Assembly (NCBI RefSeq): GCF_000969835.1 | Contig: NZ_KQ033914.1 | Span: forward strand, 62,001 to 126,000 | Length of the DNA: 64,000 nucleotides | Direction of reading: 5' to 3' | Origin: Parabacteroides goldsteinii DSM 19448 = WAL 12034 | GTDB taxonomy: Bacteria > Bacteroidota > Bacteroidia > Bacteroidales > Tannerellaceae | Shown here: one piece after another, positions 42,898-44,727 of the stretch | Numbering within the stretch: position 1 is the first letter of the stretch | Layout: each line of letters opens with the position of its first letter | Notes under the pieces: generated by a model | Told to the model about the DNA's origin: nothing | Database searches by the model: none | What the model saw: only the letters and a program-made list of their open reading frames with translations | Position numbers and translations under genes: made by a program

Positions 42898-44727
42898 ATG
42901 GACAATTATATTGTATCGGCAAGAAAATATCGCCCGTCTACCTTCCGTAGTGTTGTAGGGCAGAAGTCTCTTACCACTACACTAAAAAATGCAATACAAA
43001 GTAACAAACTTGCACATGCCTACCTTTTCTGCGGACCGCGTGGTGTCGGGAAGACTTCGTGTGCACGAATCTTTGCGAAGACAATAAACTGCCTGAACCC
43101 GGCAGCAGACGGCGAGGCTTGCAACGAATGTGAATCATGCCAGGCTTTCAATGAACAGCGTTCCTATAATATTCATGAACTGGATGCTGCCTCCAACAAC
43201 TCGGTCGACGATATCCGTTCGTTGATCGACCAGGTGCGTATCCCGCCTGCAATCGGAAAATATAAGGTCTTCATCATCGATGAGGTTCATATGCTGAGTT
43301 CGGCTGCATTCAACGCTTTCCTAAAAACGTTGGAGGAGCCACCGCATCATGCTCTGTTTATTTTAGCGACAACCGAGAAGCATAAAGTACTTCCGACTAT
43401 TCTGTCGCGTTGTCAGATATATGATTTCTCCCGCATCTCGATTGCCGATATGGTGGAACATCTGGAATATGTTGCCTCTCAAGAAAATGTGACTGCTGAG
43501 CCGGAAGCTTTGAACGTAATTGCCCAGAAAGCTGATGGCGGTATGCGTGATGCCCTGTCTATTTTCGACCAGGTAGTTAGTTTTACCAATGGCAATATTA
43601 CTTATCAGGCTGTCATCGACAATCTGAATGTACTCGATTACGAATATTATTTCCGTCTTACGGATGCAATCCTGGCAGGAAATGTACGTTCGTCTATCCT
43701 GATCCTGAATGAAATATTGAGCAAAGGATTTGACGGGCAGAATATCATTACCGGGTTGGCCGCCCATTTCCGTGATTTGCTGGTTTGTAAGGATGAGGCA
43801 ACTCTGATCTTGTTTGAAGTCGGAGCCTCGATCCGCGAAAGATATAAAGAGATGGCAAAACGCTGTCCGGATCAGTTGCTTTTTAAGGCGATCGAACTGG
43901 CCAATACCTGTGATCTGAATTATCGTGCCAGCCGTAACAAGCGCCTGCTGTTGGAACTGACGCTTATCCAGCTTTGCCAGTTGAGTAATGCAGGGCAGGC
44001 AGCCGACGATAAAAAAAAAGGAGTAATTGAACCTATCGCATCCGGTGCTCCTGGACAGCCTGTTTCTCAGGGTACACAGGCTTCACCACAGGGGCAACCT
44101 GTCCGTCAGCCTGTTCAATCATCCGGTTATCCCGGTTCACCGGCTTCACAGCAACCGGCTGATATGGGTAATAACAATGGTCGTGTAGTAACTTCGAATA
44201 TGCCTTCTTCGGCAACAGTTATTCCGCAGCCTCCTGCTGCAACTCCTCCTAAACGTCCTTCCCGTCCGCAACATTTGGGTACGTCGCTGAAAGAAATCGG
44301 TGTGGAAAAACCGAAGAACCAGATGGGGCAACAGGAAAACCGGACAGTTCAGGAGATGGTCAACCAGTTCACGGAAGAAGACCTGGTACGTTGTTGGGAT
44401 GCTTATGCGGCAAGCGGAATTATCGATAAGAAAGTTTATCTGAAGAATACGATGATCAACTGCAAGCCTGTTTTGCAGGAAAACTATTTCTTTGAAGTAG
44501 GTGTACATAATCCCGGTCAGCAGGATGAACTGAGTAATGGTTGTGTGGATTTATTGAATTATTTGCGTGCACAACTCAGAAATACGCGTATCCAGATGCG
44601 TGTCCGGATTATCGAAACGAACGAAAAGCATTTAGCCTATACGGCAACCGAGAAGTTCGAACATTTATTGACCGTAAATCCCGTCCTGGGAAAACTGAAA
44701 GACGAGTTCAATCTGACACTGGATTAA
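42898..44727 (+). CDS. dnaX: DNA polymerase III subunit tau/gamma
   Basis: 609 residues from the ATG at 42898 (MDNYIVSARKYRPSTF). Walker A GPRGVGKTS near 42-50, a zinc module with Cys in CLNPAADGEACNECESC, Walker B DEVHML, then sensor 1 ATTEKHKVLPTILSRC. Domain III ends near 365. A Pro/Gln/Gly-rich linker follows (about 375-465), then the tau C-terminal part that contacts the polymerase and helicase. The run of nine A at codons 372-374 sits exactly at the domain III/linker join; see the separate entry. Clamp-loader ATPase of the replisome. Confidence 0.96.
   Translation: MDNYIVSARKYRPSTFRSVVGQKSLTTTLKNAIQSNKLAHAYLFCGPRGVGKTSCARIFAKTINCLNPAADGEACNECESCQAFNEQRSYNIHELDAASNNSVDDIRSLIDQVRIPPAIGKYKVFIIDEVHMLSSAAFNAFLKTLEEPPHHALFILATTEKHKVLPTILSRCQIYDFSRISIADMVEHLEYVASQENVTAEPEALNVIAQKADGGMRDALSIFDQVVSFTNGNITYQAVIDNLNVLDYEYYFRLTDAILAGNVRSSILILNEILSKGFDGQNIITGLAAHFRDLLVCKDEATLILFEVGASIRERYKEMAKRCPDQLLFKAIELANTCDLNYRASRNKRLLLELTLIQLCQLSNAGQAADDKKKGVIEPIASGAPGQPVSQGTQASPQGQPVRQPVQSSGYPGSPASQQPADMGNNNGRVVTSNMPSSATVIPQPPAATPPKRPSRPQHLGTSLKEIGVEKPKNQMGQQENRTVQEMVNQFTEEDLVRCWDAYAASGIIDKKVYLKNTMINCKPVLQENYFFEVGVHNPGQQDELSNGCVDLLNYLRAQLRNTRIQMRVRIIETNEKHLAYTATEKFEHLLTVNPVLGKLKDEFNLTLD
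44011..44019 (+). other. A9 slippage site inside dnaX with immediate stops in both other frames
   Basis: GAT AAA AAA AAA GGA encodes Asp-Lys-Lys-Lys-Gly (371-375). A shift to the -1 frame gives AGG AGT AAT TGA, stopping at 44028-44030; the +1 frame gives GAG TAA, stopping at 44024-44026. Either slip yields a product of about 375-377 residues that ends after domain III, matching a gamma-like subunit. A9 is the run known to cause RNA polymerase slippage in Thermus dnaX; in E. coli a ribosomal -1 shift does the same job. Confidence 0.6.

Follow-up and report, generated by a model that had tools for sequence, protein, structure and literature searches.

The dnaX gene of a 64-kb stretch of Parabacteroides goldsteinii DNA (hereafter the window, i.e. 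the whole stretch that was analysed) carries a run of nine A directly after the codons of its clamp-loader part, and this A9 run is very probably a programmed site of transcriptional slippage of the Thermus type, which would give both the full-length tau (609 aa) and a short gamma subunit (375-377 aa). More precisely, RNA polymerase transcribing the run would produce dnaX mRNAs with 9 A (or 9 plus or minus 3), as well as others with 8, 10 or more. Translation of the in-register ones would give the 609-aa tau, and out-of-register mRNAs would end at the TAA or the TGA of a TAATTGA cassette, thereby yielding a gamma of 375-377 aa that would act as a clamp-loader subunit with domains I-III, devoid of the linker and of the tau C-terminal part. 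The slippage in this species, its occurrence at the level of RNA, its efficiency and the use of gamma are what we infer from the sequence. The existence of gamma outside Thermus and the enterics, and the question of whether gamma matters, are an old issue in the field of replication.

The dnaX gene of the window

All the features described below lie on the forward strand. The gene occupies positions 42898..44727 and encodes tau as one uninterrupted ORF of 609 aa plus the stop (67.6 kDa, computed), frame 0 being open to 44725. The best NCBIfam model for its product is PRK14971 (NF011531), with 929 bits over residues 1-609, and Pfam recognises the ATPase, the lid and domain III, the match of the latter ending at residue 365. 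In addition, the gamma chain of E. coli (PDB 1jr3, 373 aa) aligns to residues 3-358. On the basis of Pfam, of this alignment and of a structure model, domains I-III, the clamp-loader ATPase part that would be common to gamma and tau, were assigned to residues 1-371 (42898..44010). In the AlphaFold2 model, obtained from a 20-row alignment (mean pLDDT 68, pTM 0.46), the last helix of domain III covers residues 348-371, its end being modelled at low confidence, the pLDDT is below 50 at residues 368-484, and a fold is found from about residue 485 onwards. The tau linker is accordingly predicted to be disordered over residues 375-484 (44020..44349), and the tau C-terminal folded part would comprise residues 485-609 (44350..44724). 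In the light of this last helix and of the low pLDDT that follows it, the A9 run is placed, by prediction, at the domain III/linker boundary, where the clamp-loader part ends and the tau linker starts.

The run itself, at 44011..44019, reads AAA AAA AAA in frame (codons 372-374, K372-K374) and is the sole run of at least nine A or T within the window. An earlier note on this DNA had located it at the end of the ATPase/clamp-loader part; reading the sequence confirms the position, and the structure model is in line with the boundary. The double-stop cassette TAATTGA (44024..44030), also recognised in relatives, is embedded in the frame-0 V-I-E codons just downstream. Its TAA (44024-44026) is the stop of the +1 frame, 4 nt past the run, and its TGA (44028-44030) is that of the -1 frame, 8 nt past the run, so that both alternative frames do close within four codons, as had been claimed. 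When translated in silico, the A8 version of the gene gives 375 aa (41.9 kDa, C-terminus KKKE) and the A10 version 377 aa (42.1 kDa, C-terminus KKKRSN), in agreement with the slipped products of about 375-377 residues initially put forward.

The in-frame heptamer of the window is A_AAA_AAA, followed by GGA, and not the A_AAA_AAG heptamer of E. coli, and no SD-like motif was found by reading the sequence upstream of the run. A 7-bp stem, with its left arm at 44057..44063 and its right arm at 44076..44082, is present in the sequence as reported and begins 38 nt past the run. The earlier note had discounted it as a stimulator, and rightly so: none of the 9 near relatives examined has an exact copy of the right arm close to the run, and the fold z of the window sequence downstream of the run is -1.11.

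Sample of dnaX loci

Relatives were studied through 376 dnaX loci, of which 366 unique ones remained once 7 identical loci and 3 with cut junctions had been removed. Eighty of the 376 are the best 80 of one homologue search (19 with the run, 45 with a hairpin described below and 16 with neither), and the others come from the family, order and phylum around a P. gordonii genome and from the family around a Dysgonomonas genome, these labels resting on the genome used as centre. Per genome set, 78/82 (3 of the 4 others being already among the best 80), 60/62, 0/10 and 40/67 loci were taken. Since 20 of the 40 were chosen for short open frames, the two-ORF share of the phylum sample (29/68) is inflated. 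Genomes with no dnaX match at the cut-off amounted to 8/118, 8/99, 3/41 and 2/99 in the four sets. The loci are related by descent, so that Fisher p values and counts across loci are not independent. One genome, G068, harbours two DnaX-like genes, L189 (G068:C219) and L163 (G068:C205), with 83% and 63% identity to the window protein over the matched parts; the second one has no run and may be a paralogue or a contamination.

Conservation of the run and of its flanking stops

A run of A9-A13 is found at the dnaX junction in 223 of the 366 unique loci from the phylum of the window, compared to 0/1830 upstream and 3/729 downstream control windows of equal size with at least nine A in the same genes. 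Junctions with A6-A8 account for 24/366 loci and those with no run of six for 119/366, the run lengths clustering at 9-11. Among the 223 run-bearing loci, the start of the run is seen in all three codon phases, which argues that the nucleotides are kept rather than a lysine motif. Besides, the lysine codons of the run are AAA and AAG in a ratio of 591:52, versus 2637:1550 in domains I-III. ORFs were also called mechanically in the window and in 400 kb of P. gordonii that do not contain its dnaX (270 ORFs with a minimum length of 150 aa, 371 kb coding). Among them, at least nine A in a row were detected in the window dnaX only, whereas about 10 occurrences are expected by synonymous resampling and about 14 by codon-order shuffling. 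Avoidance of 9A runs has been used as a sign of costly slippage (PMC1088944).

The idea that relatives keep the A9 run together with both stops holds for the most part, a run of at least nine A being kept in 92/107 unique loci of the Tannerellaceae sample, and does not extend to the whole collection, the run being missing in 143/366 unique loci that include a Bacteroidaceae clade and 15/107 Tannerellaceae. In the loci where it is missing, gamma would be dispensable or made otherwise. On a tree of domains I-III, the presence of the run changes at least 49 times.

As for the stops, the first ones in the other frames of single-ORF genes with the run are found at a median of 5 nt (+1) and 8 nt (-1), and in 143/155 of these genes neither is more than 24 nt away from the run, against 333/1852 control points in the same genes. 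In Tannerellaceae, both other frames are stopped near the junction in 74/77 single-ORF genes with the run versus 3/15 without it, which bears out the proposal that the stops of relatives are kept alongside the run. In the same line, a T[A/G]ATT[A/G]A cassette, which provides two stops in two frames, was found in 51/76 genes with the run, over a search span of 30 nt, and in 1/15 without it, over a span of 70 nt. In Dysgonomonadaceae, paired stops occur in 21/22 genes with the run versus 5/7 without it, a difference that is not significant (p 0.14).

Relatives with tau out of frame

A dnaX gene was considered as two-ORF when a frame-0 stop lies at most 130 nt from the run and another frame is open for at least 330 nt. 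The window gene, in which no frame-0 stop follows directly after the run, is not of this kind. Such an architecture was found in 65 of the 223 loci with the run (A9 or more) and in 0 of the 143 without it, and this restriction of an out-of-frame tau to run-bearing genes is the strongest point in favour of the proposal of the earlier note, namely that gamma would be made by slippage at the A9 run, a proposal which the relatives support. The shifted tau frame is -1 in 60 of the 65 loci and +1 in 5, and for 36 of them tblastn recognised the tau part in the shifted frame, with 25-62% identity. In a two-ORF isolate, no full-length tau would be expected without slippage; relatives keep the run even where the long protein could apparently not be made without it. 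Separate initiation of tau in the two-ORF genes was considered and rejected, few start codons being found nearby: an ATG of the tau frame is present at most 45 nt away in 4/65 of them (1/155 single-ORF controls), and an ATG, GTG or TTG in 12/65 (23/155 controls).

The distribution of this state was followed on a FastTree tree built from domains I-III without the junction (367 rows including the window), on which it changes at least 28 times. The two-ORF loci form 32 groups, the largest of which contain 13, 6, 5 and 5 loci, and 22 of the 32 are single tips. All five genes with tau in +1 are single tips, so that each of them could be an assembly error. Fourteen independent pairs differing in two-ORF state were found on well-supported branches, and a sign test of two-ORF state versus run on independent supported pairs gives a median p of 0.06, not significant alone, a weakness due to the fact that most pairs share their run state.

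A few loci depart from these categories. Among those without the run, L333 is short and has no other long frame, and L078 lies close to a contig end, neither being a simple single ORF; among those with the run, L206, L218 and L290 have a frame-0 stop 119-284 nt past it and no other frame that is long by the above definition. L195 combines an A11 run with tau in +1, unlike its Dysgonomonas relatives, which are single-ORF with A10; this would be due either to an indel that arose recently in the run or to an erroneous assembly.

Alternative explanations

The short product could also be made by -1 ribosomal frameshifting on the A run, as in E. coli dnaX, a possibility that we regard as improbable. 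The in-frame A_AAA_AAA of the window would permit such a slip, the phase-1 runs of relatives give A_AAA_AAG, which is the E. coli site according to PMC3711429, and tau is in the -1 frame in most two-ORF genes (60/65). However, a single -1 shift gives no tau in the five +1 genes, would be satisfied with seven A although the run length clusters at 9-11, and has no need of a +1 stop, which is nevertheless no farther away than the -1 one (medians of 5 and 8 nt). These points favour transcriptional slippage; since the +1 genes are all single tips, this part of the argument weighs less for the transcriptional reading and leaves more to the ribosomal one. The direction of the frameshift was used likewise to tell transcriptional from ribosomal events in PMC3711429. 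Transcriptional slippage is further favoured by the lack of a clear stem 4-58 nt downstream on average and of a conserved SD-like element. A downstream stem was rejected as a stimulator, the fold z of the 55 nt downstream having means of -0.34 and -0.39 across loci, near the -0.14 of controls; nevertheless, z is lower than -2 in 12% of two-ORF genes versus 6% of controls, which counts against a stem-free slippage. An SD-like upstream stimulator was rejected as well, any of five motifs being present in the 20 nt upstream in just 29/223 run-bearing loci. It is possible that some ribosomal slippage occurs alongside the transcriptional one.

Linkers such as that of tau commonly begin with charged residues, and the run could therefore be a lysine-rich linker start kept for its charge, its length and the stops being incidental. 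This reading is strongly disfavoured, and indeed very improbable, given the synonymous bias towards AAA, the three codon phases, the absence of A9 elsewhere, the paired stops and the fact that tau is out of frame only in genes with the run. Slightly less credible still is the view that the two-ORF relatives are homopolymer assembly errors or broken genes, and as such uninformative on slippage. Homopolymer miscounts are a known type of error, many of the source genomes are drafts, 22 of the 32 two-ORF groups are single tips, and L195 is one A apart from its Dysgonomonas relatives. Against this, the state is common to related groups of 13, 6, 5 and 5 loci, the contigs that carry some of the two-ORF loci (L182, L337, L339, L341) are 2.3-3.3 Mb long, tblastn detects the tau part in the other frame in more than half of the cases, and none of the 143 genes without the run is in the two-ORF state.

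Comparison with known dnaX systems

Transcriptional slippage in the dnaX of Thermus thermophilus was reportedly described by Larsen et al. in 2000. Three papers attribute it to an A9 run (PMC1088944, PMC5009743, PMC3711429). Like the Thermus gene, the window dnaX has a nine-A run in a single tau ORF with close stops in both other frames, and thus shows, at the level of sequence, the features of the Thermus type; the shorter Thermus product comes from mRNAs of other run length, and the same is proposed here. The two differ in that the Thermus run is located seven-eighths through the coding sequence according to PMC1088944, whereas that of the window starts at codon 372 of 609 and immediately follows domain III, and in that slippage was measured in Thermus and is predicted from the sequence in the window.

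The architecture of the 65 two-ORF relatives resembles that of the two-ORF dnaX genes collected in 2013 with GeneTack (PMC3711429). That study lists 17 genes, of which all are -1 in the DNA and 12 have poly-A, and concludes from the poly-A at the ORF junction to transcriptional realignment. In these genes gamma is the default and tau needs slippage, whereas tau is the default in the window; besides, they are all -1, whereas five relatives have tau in +1 here. In E. coli, dnaX undergoes a -1 programmed ribosomal frameshift, with A_AAA_AAG, an SD-like element upstream and a stem loop downstream as signals (PMC5009743 and PMC3711429). The likeness to the window lies in a single gene with two products, of which gamma corresponds to the N-terminal part, and the difference in the SD-like and stem-loop stimulators, neither of which was found conserved in the relatives. 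The mechanism is thus already known, both from Thermus and from the two-ORF dnaX genes (PMC3711429), and the addition made here consists of its reach and of its repeated switching. A literature search that covered long result lists in part and left subscription papers mostly outside showed no report of dnaX slippage for Parabacteroides or other members of its family; the relevant papers it gave were the GeneTack study, the review PMC5009743 and PMC1088944. One study of an insect symbiont (PMC3017870) is said to concern slippage.

A wider reading, held tentatively and at a chance slightly short of even, is that the poly-A run of Bacteroidota makes dnaX frame-agnostic. As slippage would provide transcripts of each register, an indel within or beside the run would be nearly neutral and the default would flip between tau and gamma, in either frame direction, as in the changes counted above; a Bacteroidaceae clade would have replaced the system with a conserved RNA hairpin. 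From the comparison, one can predict which Bacteroidota would produce both subunits and which would have to slip to make tau, and that the Bacteroidaceae clade makes gamma in another way or not at all. In dnaX, the length of the A run and the frame also vary naturally across the phylum, which would be useful for the study of RNA polymerase slippage in vivo.

A putative hairpin in place of the run in Bacteroidaceae

A GGGC-N3/4-GCCC stem lies in frame just after dnaX domain III in 46 loci (e.g. L017 and L013), none of which has the run; those with titles belong to Bacteroides, Phocaeicola, Prevotella and kin. Because the stem pattern served to select these loci, its frequency is better judged within a clade: in one Bacteroidaceae clade, the stem is present in 46 of 48 tips and is perfect in 44, the exceptions being L201, with an A11 run, and L066, with neither run nor stem. 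Synonymous resampling of the 46 loci gives a mean of 2.0 stems and a maximum of 8 (1000 draws) versus the 44 perfect ones observed, and GGG makes up 13% of the glycine codons elsewhere in the hairpin-bearing genes. Judging from these counts, the putative stem is conserved under synonymous constraint. Its pairs hardly vary over the 46 loci, and covariation is therefore no test of the hairpin.

Two roles were considered and rejected. A genomic repeat is not indicated by the counts of GGGCNNNGCCCT, with 22 sites versus 40 for the reversed control in G004 and 12 versus 12 in G010, and a frameshift signal is not indicated by the 46 rows read, in which no slippery codons lie just upstream. The first stops in the other frames at the hairpin loci scatter over 7-1558 nt (42/46 rows, the anchor being at an earlier codon in some). 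A search of Rfam with three loci gave two matches, both below the gathering cut-off.

The four-base loops (n=4) are GUAA (twice), UUCG and GUCA. Counted from the first base of the stem, third-base bias extends over about 32 nt; at about 18-32 nt on this count, the third bases are biased to A in an (I/L)-K-P-I stretch, and the proline codons that follow K are CCC in 24/28 cases, versus 31% elsewhere.
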